A stretch of 64,000 bases of DNA. Source: an uncultured beta proteobacterium. Its GTDB lineage: Bacteria; Pseudomonadota; Gammaproteobacteria; Burkholderiales; Burkholderiaceae_C. The notes under the pieces were generated by a model. The model was not told the DNA's origin and made no database searches. It saw only the letters and a program-made list of their open reading frames with translations. Below, piece after piece: positions 6,828 to 26,868 of the stretch. How positions within the stretch are numbered: position 1 is the stretch's first letter; each line of letters begins with the position of its first letter. Location of the stretch: positions 1 to 64,000 of the forward strand of contig CAILZB010000080.1 in NCBI GenBank assembly GCA_903838565.1, written 5' to 3'. Position numbers and translations under genes: made by a program.

Positions 6828-7432
6828 ATTTTTATTCCCTTGGCTTTAAGTGCGGCACTCAGCGCTTGTGTAGCCCTGAAGCAGTGCACTTTCACACTAC
6901 CTTCCGAGCAGCCCATTGCAGCAGCGGTCTCGGCAACGTCCATTTCCTCCCAGTAACGCATGAGGAACGCTTCCCGTTGACGTGGCGACAACTGTTGCAA
7001 CTCAGTTTCGATCTCACGCAAGACTTGTGCCCGACTGGTCGTGGTTTCGGCGCTTTCCGTACCATCCGACTCGTTTTCGACCTCCAAAGTTTCCAAAATA
7101 TCAAATTCTTCGTCCTCAGCGCTGGCGTGGTAGTCGCTGAAGTTGGAAAACAGCGCGTTGCGCGTCTTCTGCCTGCGAAACCAGTCCAGCGTGCAATTGG
7201 ACAGAATACGCTGGAACAGCAAGGGCAGTTCAGCCGCAGGCTTATCCCCGTAGTGTTCTGCCAGCTTCATCATGCTTTCCTGCACGATATCCAGCGCGGA
7301 TTCCTCGTTCCGGACGTGGTAAACGGAACGCTTGAACGCACGTTTTTCCACCCCCTTGAGGAATTCTGAAAGCTCGAGTTCTGTGGCCAAAGGCGGCGCC
7401 GTCCGGTAATGGAGTGACCCCGACGCGCTCAT
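6824..7432 (-). CDS. RNA polymerase sigma factor, ECF-like sigma-70 family
   Basis: A 202-residue group IV-type sigma factor with region 2 (NEESALDIVQESMMKLAEHY, then TLDWFRRQKTRNALF) and region 4 (LQQLSPRQREAFLMRYWEEM, then MGCSEGSVKVHCFRATQAL, the helix-turn-helix that reads the -35 element). An acidic linker of about 40 residues joins them. The ATG at 7432 is used; a TTG two codons upstream is less likely. It is the first gene of a minus-strand run of six closely spaced genes (DUF3619, DUF3106, RDD, dgkA, LOG). The downstream set suggests an envelope-related regulon. I could not identify an autoregulated promoter. Confidence 0.9.
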   Translation of the reverse strand: MSASGSLHYRTAPPLATELELSEFLKGVEKRAFKRSVYHVRNEESALDIVQESMMKLAEHYGDKPAAELPLLFQRILSNCTLDWFRRQKTRNALFSNFSDYHASAEDEEFDILETLEVENESDGTESAETTTSRAQVLREIETELQQLSPRQREAFLMRYWEEMDVAETAAAMGCSEGSVKVHCFRATQALSAALKAKGIKI

Positions 7433-7707
7433 GGGCAAGCGTCAGGAATGAAGATTGCCCAAATTATCGCATTGCCGCAAGGCGGCCGGTCCGGGGCCGC
7501 TGGTGCGCAATTCAATTCCGGGCTTCGACGAAAATGCTGCAATGCAATGCGATAATCGCAGCGCAAGTCATCAAAGGCAAAAGGGTCTCGGCTCGGCGGC
7601 AATTAATTCCGCTTATGGCCTTGGCCTCAAGTCCCGACACCGCCCCACAAAGGCATGGCGAAGGGGCACCCAAGGTTTTTCGTTAGAGAAATTCACAAAG
7701 GTTCATC
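7433..7707. other. Intergenic region between sigma factor and ilvI
   Basis: About 275 bases between two divergent transcription units. I see a GATAAT at 7551-7556 that could be a -10 element for ilvI, but no well-spaced -35 element. I found no Ile/Val-rich leader peptide and no terminator hairpin, so attenuation like that upstream of leuA is not evident here. A ribosome-binding AAAGG lies about 7 bases before the ilvI ATG. Confidence 0.4.
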
Positions 7708-9492
7708 ATGGAAATTTCAAAGGCCGAATCGTCGGCCACATCGGCAATGCCTCATCCCGCGCCCAAATCCGTCCCGGAACTCATGGGTTCGGAGATTCTG
7801 ATCAAGACGCTTCAGGCCGAAGGCGTCAAGTACATCTGGGGCTACCCCGGCGGCGCCGTTCTGTACATCTACGACGCCCTGTACAAGCAGGACACGATGC
7901 AGCACGTACTGGTGCGCCACGAACAGGCCGCCGTGCACGCGGCTGACGGCTATGCGCGCGCCACGGGCGACGTGGGTGTGGCGCTGGTCACCTCCGGCCC
8001 GGGCCTGACGAATGCCGTCACCGGTATCGCCACCGCCTACATGGACAGCATTCCTATGGTGATCGTTGCGGGCCAAGTGCCCACGCACGCCATCGGGCAG
8101 GACGCATTCCAGGAATGCGACACGGTGGGCATCACGCGCCCGGTGGTGAAGCACAACTTTCTGGTGAAGGACGTGCGTGACCTGGCGCTGACGATGAAGA
8201 AGGCGTTCCACATCGCGCGCAGCGGCCGCCCGGGCCCGGTGGTGGTGGACATTCCGAAGGACGTGTCCTTCAAGAAGACGCCCTATGCCGGCTACCCGGA
8301 AACCGTGGAAATGCGTTCCTACAACCCGGTGCGCAAGGGCCATTCGGGCCAGATCCGCAAGGCGTTGCAGCTGCTACTGGCTGCCAAGCGCCCGTACATC
8401 TACACCGGCGGCGGCGTGGTGGCGAGCAACGCCTCGGCCGAACTGCGTGCCTTGGTGGACATGCTGGGTTATCCGACGACCCAAACCCTGATGGGACTGG
8501 GCTCGTACCCGGCGAGCGACCGCAAGTTCCTGGGCATGCTGGGCATGCACGGCACCATGGAAGCCAACAACGCGATGCAGAATTGCGATGTGCTGCTGGC
8601 CGTGGGCGCGCGCTTTGACGACCGCGTGATCGGTAACCCCAAGCATTTTTCGCAGAACGAACGCAAGATCATTCATATCGACATCGATCCGTCGAGCATT
8701 TCGAAACGCGTCAAGGTCGACATTCCGATCGTGGGCGATGTGAAGGACGTGTTGACCGAGATGATTGCGATCATCCGTGAAGGCAGCGTCAAGCCCGATC
8801 CTGCAGCGCTGAGCGCGTGGTGGGAGACGATTGAAGGCTGGCGCCGCCGCGACTGCCTCAAGTACGACCACGGCAAGGGCGACGTGATCAAGCCGCAGTA
8901 CGTGGTGGAAACGCTGTGGAACATGACCAAGGACGCCGACGCCTACATCACCTCGGACGTGGGTCAGCACCAGATGTGGGCGGCGCAGTATTACCGCTTC
9001 GACGAGCCGCGGCGCTGGATCAATTCGGGCGGGTTGGGCACCATGGGCGTGGGCATCCCCTACGCCATGGGCATCAAGCTGGCCAAGCCCGAAAGTGAAG
9101 TGTTCTGCGTCACCGGCGAGGGTTCGGTGCAGATGTGCATCCAGGAACTCTCCACGTGCCTGCAGTACAACACGCCGATCAAGATCCTGGCTTTGAACAA
9201 CCGCTACCTGGGCATGGTGCGCCAATGGCAGGAGATCGAGTATTCGGGTCGCTACAGCCACAGCTACATGGACGCGCTGCCCGATTTCGTCAAGCTGGCG
9301 CAGGCCTATGGCCACGTCGGCATGCTGATCGAGCGCCCTGAAGACGTGGAGGGCGCGTTGCGCGAGGCGCGCAAGCTCAAGGACCGAACCGTGTTCATGG
9401 ACTTCCGCACCGACCCCACGGAGAACGTGTTCCCGATGGTGAAGGCCGGCATGGGCATCACCGAAATGCTGCTTGGCGCGGAGGACCTCTGA
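7708..9492 (+). CDS. ilvI: Acetolactate synthase large (catalytic) subunit
   Basis: A 594-residue ThDP enzyme, the full family length. It condenses two pyruvates to acetolactate or pyruvate and 2-oxobutyrate to acetohydroxybutyrate, the first common step of Val, Leu and Ile synthesis. The N-terminal PYR domain has [15 protein letters not shown] and the ThDP-activating Glu in [18 protein letters not shown]. The middle domain binds FAD. The C-terminal domain has the metal/ThDP motif beginning at [14 protein letters not shown] and ending at [13 protein letters not shown]. The ATG at 7708 has an AAAGG about 7 bases upstream. The small subunit ilvH follows after one base, so the two subunits are probably made together. 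Named ilvI for its pairing with ilvH; ilvB is an equivalent label. Confidence 0.96.
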
Positions 9493-10011: not shown

Positions 10012-11131
<1,120 letters not shown>

Positions 11132-11147
11132 TCTTCTTGTGACAAGC

Positions 11148-11174
11148 AGGGCCACTTCGGTGGCCCTTTTTTTT
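11148..11174 (+). terminator. Rho-independent terminator of the ilv operon
   Basis: A perfect stem AGGGCCAC/GTGGCCCT around a UUCG tetraloop (arms 11148-11155 and 11160-11167) runs directly into an eight-T tract (11167-11174). It lies 16 bases after the ilvC stop. Confidence 0.93.
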
Positions 11175-11224
11175 GGTGTTGCAGAGCGTACACTTGCGGC
11201 CTGTCCACAGTCCAAACCCGATCC

Positions 11225-12034
11225 ATGAACGACGACGAATCTGTCAGTACCAAGTCGGATGAAATCCCGGCGATTCCCAAGCGCCGCAAGGGCATCTATG
11301 TGCTGCCCAATCTGTTCACGCTGGCGGCACTGTTTGGTGGCTTCTACGCCATCGTGATGGCCATCAACGGGCGCTTTGATCTGGCGGTGGTAGGTATTGC
11401 CTGTGCCATGGTGCTGGACAGCCTGGACGGTCGCGTGGCGCGCATGACGAACACGCAAAGCGCCTTTGGCGAGCAGATGGACTCGCTCTCGGACATGGTG
11501 TCGTTTGGCGCAGCGCCCGCGCTCATCTCCTACATCTGGGCGCTCAAGGGTCTGGGCCGCTGGGGCTGGATCGCGGCCTTTGTCTACATCTCGTGCGCTG
11601 CCTTGCGCCTGGCGCGCTTCAACGTCAACACCGCCGTCGTGGACAAGCGCTACTTCCAGGGCCTGCCGTCGCCCGCGGCGGCGGCCATCATCGCCAGTTT
11701 CATCTACACCATGAACGACCTCGATATCTCCGCAGCGAGCGTGGCCTGGCCGATGTTTGCGCTGGCGCTGTACGCGGGCCTGACGATGGTGACGAACGTG
11801 CCCTTCTACAGCTTCAAGGATGTGTCCAAGAAGAGTGTCCCGTTCGTGGTGCTGGTCGCCATCGCGCTCATCATCGCCGCCATCAACATCGATCCGCCCA
11901 AGGTGCTGTTTGGCATCTTCATGCTCTATGGCATCAGCGGCTACGTGATCTATGGCTGGCGCAAGGCCAAGGGGGTGCCGACCAGCGTCATCAGCACCTC
12001 GACCGATGAACCGGACGAGAAGGGGCTGCACTGA
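11225..12034 (+). CDS. pssA: CDP-diacylglycerol--serine O-phosphatidyltransferase
   Basis: A 269-residue inner-membrane enzyme making phosphatidylserine, the precursor of phosphatidylethanolamine. The CDP-alcohol phosphotransferase signature is intact: DSLDGRVARMTN, then GEQMDSLSDMVSFG, fitting DGxxAR(x8)Gxxx D xxxD. About eight hydrophobic segments follow the N-terminal KRRKGIYVLPNLFTLAALFG. In related bacteria pssA often sits between ilvC and leuA, as here. It is probably transcribed on its own, because a terminator precedes it and the leuA leader follows. Confidence 0.94.
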   Translation: MNDDESVSTKSDEIPAIPKRRKGIYVLPNLFTLAALFGGFYAIVMAINGRFDLAVVGIACAMVLDSLDGRVARMTNTQSAFGEQMDSLSDMVSFGAAPALISYIWALKGLGRWGWIAAFVYISCAALRLARFNVNTAVVDKRYFQGLPSPAAAAIIASFIYTMNDLDISAASVAWPMFALALYAGLTMVTNVPFYSFKDVSKKSVPFVVLVAIALIIAAINIDPPKVLFGIFMLYGISGYVIYGWRKAKGVPTSVISTSTDEPDEKGLH

Positions 12035-12039
12035 GCAAG

Positions 12040-12051
12040 CTGTGCTACAGT
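12040..12051 (+). promoter_or_regulatory. Probable promoter (extended -10) of the leuA leader
   Basis: TGCTACAGT (the -10 hexamer TACAGT at 12046-12051 preceded by TG) fits an extended -10 element. No good -35 is seen. Transcription would begin around 12057-12059, almost at the leader ATG (12058), so the leader peptide may be translated from a leaderless or nearly leaderless transcript. Confidence 0.45.
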
Positions 12052-12057
12052 GGTGCC

Positions 12058-12114
12058 ATGAAGAATATTTCGCTAGCGCTACTGCTATCAGTCCGACACG
12101 GGCAGGTTCAGTAA
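12058..12114 (+). CDS. leuL: leu operon leader peptide (18 aa, attenuator)
   Basis: A short ORF reading MKNISLALLLSVRHGQVQ and ending in TAA. Codons 6, 8, 9 and 10 are Leu (CTA, CTA, CTG, CTA). Three CTA codons, which are rare in a genome this GC-rich, make the ribosome very sensitive to charged tRNA-Leu supply. The ORF is followed by mutually exclusive RNA hairpins and a terminator in front of leuA. These are the features of a ribosome-mediated leucine attenuator. The gene name is used by analogy with enterobacterial leuL; the sequence is unrelated. Confidence 0.85.
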   Translation: MKNISLALLLSVRHGQVQ

Positions 12115-12171
12115 CGTCTTGACGATCACTGTTTTCCAAAGGCCCGTATGCATTCGCAACGGGCCTTTTTT
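12098..12171 (+). terminator. leuA attenuator: terminator with competing antiterminator
   Basis: The terminator stem is AAGGCCCGT (12139-12147) with ACGGGCCTT (12159-12167), followed by a T-rich tract (12166-12171). An upstream ACGGGC at 12098-12103, inside the last codons of the leader peptide, can instead pair with GCCCGT at 12142-12147 and block the terminator. A ribosome that finishes the leader (stop at 12112) would cover 12098-12103 and allow termination. A ribosome stalled on the first Leu codons (12073-12081) leaves it free. A further 9-base complement (12152-12160 with 12184-12192) offers a third structure. Confidence 0.85.
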
Positions 12172-12218
12172 CTTTCCATTCATGTTGCGAATTTCCATCT
12201 TTTTTATCGGAGCGAACC

Positions 12219-13757
12219 ATGGCTGACAAGCTGATCATTTTTGATACGACATTGCGCGACGGAGAGCAGTCTCCCGGCGCCTCCATGACGCGCGACGAAA
12301 AGCTGCGCATTGCGCGCCAGCTCGAGCGCCTGCGCGTGGATGTGATCGAGGCTGGTTTTGCGGCCAGTTCCAATGGCGATTTCGAGGCCATCAAGGCCAT
12401 CGCCAACGTGATCAAGGACTCCACCATCTGTTCGCTGTCGCGTGCCAACGACCGCGACATTTCGCGTGCCGCCGAGGCGCTCGCAGGTGCCAGCAGCGCC
12501 CGCATCCACACCTTCATCGCGACCAGTGCCCTGCACATGGAGAAGAAGCTGCGCATGACGCCGGATCAGGTGTTCGAGCAGGCCAAGCTGGCCGTGCGCT
12601 TCGCCCGCAACCTGGTGGGCGATGTGGAGTTCAGTCCCGAGGACGGCTACCGCAGCGACCCCGACTTTCTTTGCCGCGTGATCGAGGCGGTGATTGCCGA
12701 GGGCGCCACCACCATCAACGTGCCCGACACGGTGGGCTATGCGATCCCCGAGCTCTATGGCAACTTCATCAAGAATCTGCGCGAGCGCGTTCCCAACAGC
12801 GACAAAGCCATCTGGTCTGTCCATTGCCACAACGACCTGGGGATGGCGGTGGCGAATTCGCTCGCTGGCGTGAAGATCGGCGGCGCGCGTCAGGTCGAGT
12901 GCACCATCAACGGCCTGGGCGAGCGCGCCGGCAACTGTGCGCTGGAAGAGGTCGTGATGGCGATCAAGACGCGCCGGGATTATTTCGATCTGACGATGGG
13001 GATCGATACCTCGCAGATCGTCGCGGCCAGCCGCATGGTGAGCCAGACCACTGGTTTTGTGGTGCAGCCGAACAAGGCGGTGGTGGGGGCCAATGCCTTT
13101 GCGCACGCTTCAGGCATCCATCAGGACGGCGTGCTCAAGGCGCGCGACACCTACGAGATCATGCGCGCCGAGGATGTGGGCTGGAGCGCCAACAAGATCG
13201 TGCTGGGCAAGCTCAGCGGACGCAACGCCTTCAAGCAGCGCCTGCAGGAGCTGGGCGTGCAGATGGAGAGCGAAGCCGATATCAACACCGCCTTTGCCAA
13301 GTTCAAGGAACTGGCCGACCGCAAGAGCGAGATCTTCGACGAGGACATCCTGGCCCTGGTGAGCGAAGAAGCGGTGACGCAGCAGCGCGAGCAATACGGC
13401 TTTGTCTCGCTGTCGCAGCACAGCGAGACCGGTGAACGGCCGCACGCCAGCATCGTCTTCACGGTCGACGGCAAGGAATTCACCGGCGAGTCCGACGGCA
13501 ATGGACCGGTGGATGCTTCGCTCAAGGCGATCGAAACCCATGTCAAGAGCGGCGCCGAGATGGTGCTGTATTCGGTCAACGCCATCAGCGGCTCCACCGA
13601 GAGCCAGGGCGAAGTGACGGTGCGACTGCAAAACAGCGGCCGCGTTGTGAATGGCGTGGGCGCGGATCCGGACATCATCGTGGCCTCGGCCAAAGCCTAT
13701 CTGAGCGCGCTCAACAAGCTGCAAAGCAAGGCCGATCGGGTCGCGGCGCAGGGCTGA
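12219..13757 (+). CDS. leuA: 2-isopropylmalate synthase
   Basis: A 512-residue enzyme for the first committed step of leucine synthesis, condensing acetyl-CoA with 2-oxoisovalerate. The catalytic HMGL-like TIM barrel opens with [17 protein letters not shown] and contains the metal-binding [17 protein letters not shown]. The C-terminal leucine-binding (LeuA dimer) domain, from about residue 390, includes [14 protein letters not shown] and gives feedback inhibition. The gene follows a leucine-rich leader peptide and attenuator, so it is controlled both by transcription attenuation and by allostery. A terminator follows at 13810-13841. Confidence 0.97.
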
Positions 13758-25719: not shown

Positions 25720-25898
25720 AAGGTGTCTGCAGTTGCCGCCGGACCGTCATCCTGAACCGGGGTTCAGGTGGGCGAGGTCAGCCGAGGCTTTGGGTTCATC
25801 TGACGCGAGATGATCACGCATTCCCCTGCGATGTTCCAAGCCCGGTGCTACATGAGCATTGGTTCAAGGAAATATAAAGCCCGGCGCGCACTGCAGAC
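25720..25898 (-). ncRNA. ssrS: 6S RNA
   Basis: About 180 nt on the minus strand, directly downstream of zapA, the usual place of ssrS. The 5' end (from about 25898) reads TCTGTCTGCAGTGCGCGCCG and pairs with the 3' end (CCGGCGGCAACTGCAGACAC, ending near 25720) to form the long closing stem. Near the 3' side is CACCTGAACCCCGGTTCAGG, which matches the E. coli 6S segment CACCTTGAACCAAGGGTTCA in the arm next to the central bubble. 6S RNA mimics an open promoter and holds the sigma-70 polymerase in stationary phase. The ends are estimates. Confidence 0.85.
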
Positions 25899-25904
25899 AG
25901 ACCG

Positions 25905-26473: not shown

Positions 26474-26538
26474 GAATATTCGGTGTGAGAAGCTGATTGT
26501 AAGGATTCGCCTGGCGGGAATTGAATAAAATACGCCTG

Positions 26539-26790
26539 TTGGTGCTCGCGGTGTGGTTCACATGCCGCAGTTCAACGGGAAGCAGGAAGGTCAGTCGTTG
26601 GCTGCGGGACAGGTCTCGCAGCCCATCGATGAGCCCCGCCTGCGCTGCCCCCGCAACGGTCAAACGGACGAGTCTTCGGCATTTCATGCTGAGGGTTCAC
26701 TTTCATCAACAGCCACTGAGCGCCTTGAACAAGTGCTTGGGAAGGCGATGAAAGCAGCGCCGCCAGCCCGGATACCGGCCAACACGGTGA
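26539..26790 (+). promoter_or_regulatory. Cobalamin riboswitch upstream of btuB
   Basis: The conserved core of the adenosylcobalamin-binding element is present in order: GGTGCTCGC (26541), CGGGAAGCAGG (about 26576), the B12-box-like GCTGCCCCCGCAACGG (about 26643), CCACTG with GGGAAGGCG (about 26716-26747), and GCCAGCCCGGATACCGGCCA (about 26762). An extra stem of about 45 nt is inserted between the second and third blocks. A perfect 14-base palindrome (26793-26806) follows and may be part of the expression platform. High B12 should repress the btu operon that follows. A TAAAAT at 26526-26531 may be the promoter -10. Confidence 0.93.
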
Positions 26791-26868
26791 GACTGCGCGC
26801 GCGCAGCCTCGTGTCGCTCATGCACTGGCGGGGAAGCCGGTGCTGGCACTTGTCGCCTTTGTCCATCC

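Follow-up and report, generated by a model that had tools for sequence, protein, structure and literature searches.

A predicted leaderless leucine attenuator upstream of leuA, conserved across a betaproteobacterial family

The window, by which we mean the whole 64,000-nt stretch of DNA analysed, carries pssA and leuA as co-directional genes, and direct reading of the sequence puts a gap of 184 nt between the pssA stop codon at 12032–12034 and the start of leuA at 12219. The downstream ORF (12219–13757, plus strand, as are all features of this locus) has relatives that are 84–97% identical and is taken here, from established family knowledge, to be leuA, encoding 2-isopropylmalate synthase and presumably the regulated gene; a Shine-Dalgarno-like CGGAG precedes it at 12208–12212. 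The gap begins with an extended −10 promoter element, TGTGCTACAGT, which lacks a −35 partner (12041–12051) and within which TGCTACAGT (12043–12051) ends 6 nt before an ATG located 23 nt past the end of pssA. From this ATG runs an ORF of 18 codons plus TAA (12058–12114), encoding the putative leader peptide MKNISLALLLSVRHGQVQ, with the control codons CTA GCG CTA CTG CTA at 12073–12087 (Leu codons CTA at 12073, 12079 and 12085, and CTG at 12082). The predicted transcription start, judged from the −10-to-ATG spacing across leaders, is the A of the leader AUG at 12058, which would make the transcript leaderless and leave no space for a Shine-Dalgarno sequence.

The RNA downstream of the start codon contains four segments that could form alternative hairpins. 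In the minimum free energy fold, region 1 (12070–12084), which overlaps the Leu codons, forms the 5′ arm of a 1:2 protector hairpin whose 3′ arm (12109–12125) includes the stop codon, and within this hairpin GUCCG at 12091–12095 sequesters CGGGC at 12099–12103. Region 2, the 5′ strand of the putative antiterminator (ACGGGC, 12098–12103), lies within the leader ORF, 8 nt upstream of its stop codon, and is the exact complement of region 3 (GCCCGU, 12142–12147), which falls in nearly invariant alignment columns and is common to the antiterminator and the 5′ arm of the terminator. The intrinsic terminator (3:4) has the stem arms AAAGGCCCGU and ACGGGCCUUU at 12138–12168 and a U run at 12166–12171, and the leader region as a whole folds with z = −4.4, beating all 200 shuffles. 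An initial annotation, made from the sequence alone, had described an ORF with four clustered Leu codons, three of them CTA, and the pairing of 12098–12103 with 12142–12147; direct reading bears out both, the ORF coordinates agreeing within one base and the complementarity being exact, and the terminator it had placed at 12139–12167 is present but extends one base further on each side. An intrinsic terminator thus separates the leader ORF from the biosynthetic gene, and on its sequence and conservation 12041–12171 is a complete predicted ribosome-mediated transcription attenuator for leuA.

Relatives of LeuA were collected from 80 loci in a species-representative genome collection and from 61 genomes around the window's own, and the genera in their titles were those of the Comamonadaceae, such as Acidovorax, Limnohabitans, Polaromonas, Variovorax, Hydrogenophaga, Ramlibacter and Rhodoferax, among others. 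Most show the same arrangement, immediately upstream either of leuA or of an intervening LeuA2, a second, distantly related LeuA that adjoins leuA and matches it over stretches of 26–30% identity. In many of them (L007, L008, L013, L023, L028 and others) the attenuator lies ~1.9 kb upstream of leuA, before the LeuA2-leuA tandem; the window locus has leuA only, without LeuA2. In either arrangement, the gene or genes downstream make the amino acid that the leader would sense. When a covariance model built from 75 leader sequences was run over 251 genomes of the family, representing 141 genera, 197 genomes and 120 genera had the element. The arrangement is kept in about 160 distinct leaders; one leader (L072) has GTG as its start codon, and a few leuA genes of the family (L041, L042) lack the element. 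Among 399 genomes of the order outside the family, clear matches were confined to a single genus, belonging to a second family, whose leaders are likewise Leu-rich and built in the same way; the remaining few were weak and terminator-like. One genome of this second family (G045) has the element just before a LeuA relative with 28% identity. Leaders of this type, MDT...LLALLLF...GRR followed by a stop, were seen in a genus of a different family of the order (L124, L125, L126 and L128), in L128 just upstream of a LeuA2-type gene. A search of 274 genomes of the class returned no convincing element beyond the family.

Evidence that the leader is translated came from a frame test anchored on the −10 element, the terminator and CGGG(C/T), with no Leu or ORF criterion used. 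In all 81 distinct loci an ATG lies 4–11 nt past the −10 element, and the distance from ATG to GGG is divisible by three in 76. The ATG frame is free of stops in 81/81 loci, the second frame in 2 and the third in 77, and Leu makes up 32% of codons in the ATG frame vs 8% and 2% in the other two; indels in the leaders keep the frame. The leader ORF, a short ORF with clustered codons for the pathway product that mostly encodes 17–18 aa, is therefore one whose frame conservation points to selection and to translation.

Among the leader Leu codons, CTA accounts for 203 of 390 (52%), compared with 11 of 3208 (0.3%) within leuA itself at these loci and 2 of 184 (1.1%) in neighbouring genes of the window. 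CTA use is also tied to structure: CTA makes up 89% of the Leu codons that pair with the stop and 44% of the others. When the order of the Leu codons was permuted, the native 1:2 region proved more stable by a mean of 0.75 kcal/mol (p = 4e-4), and resampling the Leu codons from host usage left its stability unchanged (p = 0.88); pairing therefore helps to settle where CTA is placed, but not the use of CTA itself. The separate pressure that maintains CTA in leaders is most simply control sensitivity. CTA in the leaders is thus not purely a rare-codon device, given the excess among stop-paired codons, although it is strongly enriched at the other positions too. In the Salmonella leu leader, replacing three CUA codons with CUG lowered sensitivity, according to Carter et al. 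1986 as cited in PMC1183508.

These observations bear on a simpler reading of the locus, in which the hairpin, sitting as it does between two co-directional genes, merely terminates pssA, leuA has its own promoter and the ORF is accidental. The in-frame conservation of Leu and the in-frame indels argue against this, as do the roughly 150-fold enrichment of CTA in leaders and the conserved 2:3 complementarity described below; moreover, a sigma-70 consensus scan of 11100–12400 found no −35/−10 pair, including between the terminator and leuA. We regard it as extremely improbable.

Single-sequence folds of the leaders before the terminator is made pair the Leu codons with the stop-codon region, with an inner helix that conceals GGGC, and a CUA in the leader frame is the partner of the stop codon in 53 of 86 leader folds. 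Most relatives have UAG as the stop, paired with a CUA Leu codon, and a conserved GCGCACGCG downstream of the stop forms the 3′ arm of the 1:2 hairpin; at the window locus, two bases of the UAA stop and the preceding CAG take part in the 1:2 pairing. Over 75 sequences, the 1:2 helix is paired in 80.5% of cells vs 21–53% when slid, with no covariation above shuffles, and the 2:3 antiterminator is paired in 97.3% of cells (8–49% when slid) with one two-sided change. For the one 2:3 pair that varies, a larger set gave 120 paired sequences vs 111.9 ± 2.6 in shuffles that ignore relatedness, an association that lends the predicted antiterminator modest support. Covariation in the antiterminator is thin because regions 2 and 3 are nearly invariant, as expected for strands that each serve two or three pairings. 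The terminator stem does covary (A-U/C-G in 27 and G-C/A-U in 16 of the 75 sequences), and RNAalifold on the whole alignment returned the terminator only, as expected if the states are mutually exclusive and the Leu repeats shift. In the comparison of homologous gaps that the initial annotation had proposed, the Leu run, the terminator, the complementarity of regions 2 and 3 and the spacing from −10 to ATG are all retained family-wide; covariation was found in the terminator stem and only thinly in the antiterminator.

The predicted switch was examined by masked folding of the nascent leader before region 4, with the ribosome footprint forced to be unpaired and its size being an assumption. 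The median probability of the 2:3 pairing was 0.06 with no ribosome, 0.99 at the best Leu stall and 0 with the ribosome at the stop, and at the best Leu stall 93% of leaders exceeded 0.5. Even without a ribosome, 2:3 was predicted to form in 28% of them. For the window leader, the values were 0.14 without a ribosome, 0.99 at each of the four Leu codons and 0.00 at the stop, in line with the geometry first suggested from the sequence, where a stall leaves 12098–12103 free and a ribosome at the stop covers it. In computation, the exclusive antiterminator is thus freed by a stall on the control codons and masked at the stop. The full-length leader at equilibrium goes to the terminator, and control must therefore be kinetic, as in other attenuators.

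We consider it highly likely that leuA is controlled by leucine-responsive, ribosome-mediated transcription attenuation at this element, and that the transcript from which the leader peptide is made has no 5′ leader of its own. We infer that RNA polymerase would start at the A of the leader AUG from the extended −10 without a −35, and that a ribosome would load on this 5′ AUG. With leucine plentiful, the ribosome would reach the stop and cover ACGGGC, and the terminator would form; with no ribosome loaded, the hairpin that joins the Leu codons to the stop region would conceal ACGGGC as well. With leucine scarce, a stall on the CUA and CUG codons would open this hairpin, ACGGGC would pair with GCCCGU and leuA would be transcribed, such that leuA is very probably switched on solely under leucine shortage.

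The proposed transcription start draws on the promoter. Over 86 leaders the −10 consensus is TGTGNTACATT; these leaders were selected in part by its TGNTANANT core but not by the preceding TG. Columns from the −10 up to −40 hold ≤0.21 bits, except for the bases adjoining TGTG, and no conserved −35 was present in the 86 leaders. The gap from the −10 to the ATG in 160 distinct leaders is 6 nt (69), 7 nt (63) or 8 nt (19), and 9–10 nt in the rest. A sigma-70 start usually lies 6–8 nt past the −10, and the promoter would thus put +1 at or near the start codon, with no Shine-Dalgarno sequence. Given this 6–8 nt gap, shared by 151 of 160 leaders, and the lack of a conserved −35, the leaderless leader peptide, raised at first only as a possibility, now appears to be a conserved design, with its start point predicted from promoter position. 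A pyrimidine at −1 was considered as a mark of the start site and dropped, being common before leuA itself and hence without discrimination. It could also be that the leucine attenuator is transcribed from further upstream with an ordinary 5′ UTR, TGTGCTACAGT not being its promoter, and readthrough from pssA is possible with so short a distance to the leader ATG. Against this, TGTGNTACATT keeps a fixed spacing to the ATG in about 160 leaders and recurs at the unrelated DAHP synthase leader (see below), and the bases upstream of the leader ATG are not purine-rich, unlike those upstream of leuA; we think an upstream start unlikely.

In the window's own genome, TGTGNTANANT-N5-8-ATG occurs twice. 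One copy precedes leuA; the other precedes the leader MNAARFYFSYFWFSSAAGGREF, downstream of which lie a terminator and a DAHP synthase gene. This second predicted leaderless attenuator (TGTGCTATATT, leader, terminator and DAHP synthase; L112 and L162, G000:C74:7260–8556, minus strand) is kept in relatives, with a family core of FYFYFWFS and a −10-to-ATG spacing of 6–8 nt in 22 of 23. Aromatic leaders with different −10 regions were seen in some other families of the order (L186–L189). The strict TGTGNTACATT-N5-8-ATG pattern occurs 65 times in 121 genomes of the family and never in the reversed control, and 63 of the 65 matches precede either LeuA-type genes (32) or DAHP synthase with Phe/Tyr/Trp-rich leaders (31); the other two precede an infA-like gene and an unrelated short gene. 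This recurrence, independent of leuA, is the strongest support for the predicted leaderless start. The infA-like gene (translation initiation factor IF-1, L208) would itself be leaderless.

The DAHP synthase leaders carry GGCGG inside the ORF after the aromatic run, which can pair with the terminator arm CCGCC. In masked folding of 22 such leaders, the median antiterminator probability was 0.08 when free, 1.00 with the ribosome stalled at the best aromatic codon and 0.01 once it stands at the stop, with more scatter than among the leuA leaders: antitermination is predicted without a ribosome in several, the window genome's own included, and also at the stop in several with a longer tail. We think it probable, with less confidence than for the attenuator itself, that the leuA and DAHP synthase attenuators share, as a module dedicated to them, the −35-less extended −10 that places +1 on the leader AUG, that leaderless initiation in them would help to synchronise ribosome and polymerase, and that in the leuA version the rare CUA doubles as partner of the UAG stop.

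A search of a collection of open-access papers, which did not cover Vitreschak et al. 2004, the key comparative study of attenuators in proteobacteria, turned up no account of a leuA attenuator from betaproteobacteria. The usual picture of proteobacterial attenuator leader peptides is one of Shine-Dalgarno-led translation. The element resembles enterobacterial leuL (RF00512) in its Leu-rich leader peptide, CUA control codons and terminator/antiterminator before leuA, but the Rfam RF00512 Leu_leader model gave no match to the window element at the gathering threshold or at E ≤ 10. It differs further in its mostly 17–18-aa, predicted leaderless leader, where the E. coli leu leader has 28 aa with 4 Leu (PMC6123439), in its antiterminator strand inside the ORF and stop codon in the protector hairpin, and in controlling leuA alone or LeuA2-leuA. 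A weak minus-strand match to Rfam Bp2_287 was dropped, the reported context of that family (purF, metZ, metX) being unrelated.

Leaderless starts have precedents in other attenuators. In Sinorhizobium meliloti, the trpL attenuator RNA begins at the start codon (ATG) of its leader peptide ORF (PMC7298713), an alphaproteobacterial system that senses Trp rather than Leu and in which the start is established, where here it is predicted. The attenuated leaderless trpL RNA of Sinorhizobium and its peptide also act in trans (PMC7298713), and by extension the present leader could, instead of terminating in cis, act mainly on leuA translation or release a leaderless RNA or peptide that works in trans; this we judge very unlikely, as a strong, covarying intrinsic terminator is conserved and the C-terminal residues of the peptide (HGRRR, HGQVQ, EPRVR) co-vary with the RNA strand that must pair. 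In Corynebacterium glutamicum, the ilvBNC transcript begins a single nucleotide away from the start codon of its leader (PMC11857589), and reported leader peptides include one for leuA, with four Leu codons, and one for aroF, with Phe-Tyr-Phe (PMC4046766); these two match the pathway steps of the leuA and DAHP synthase leaders here, although all are actinobacterial and unrelated in sequence. The mycobacterial polycysteine leaderless short ORFs, amino-acid-responsive attenuators as PMC9031893 describes Canestrari 2020, differ in sensing cysteine, in being actinobacterial and in being described there as regulating translation of downstream genes. The actinobacterial LEU element before leuA has a pseudoknot and pairing of its Leu-codon run with the leuA Shine-Dalgarno box, in place of the terminator switch predicted here.

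There are thus precedents elsewhere for attenuation by leucine, for CUA as a control codon and for leaderless attenuators. What appears new is a family-wide betaproteobacterial leucine attenuator with its antiterminator strand in the ORF and its stop in the protector hairpin, together with a promoter-ATG fusion common almost exclusively to two attenuators. An Rfam-based survey suggested that amino-acid attenuators originate largely in gammaproteobacteria (PMC3766115); the Rfam leucine model misses the betaproteobacterial leuA element. A whole betaproteobacterial family appears to run its leucine and aromatic entry points via leaderless leader peptides, which predicts control of leuA and DAHP synthase across many environmental genera and would offer two conserved native substrates for how leaderless initiation keeps up with RNA polymerase.

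Elsewhere in the window, inspection by eye of 7380–7708, before ilvB, revealed no evident Leu/Ile/Val-rich leader with a terminator. A 6S RNA (Rfam RF00013) lies at 25720–25902 on the minus strand, near a cobalamin riboswitch at 26523–26797 on the plus strand.
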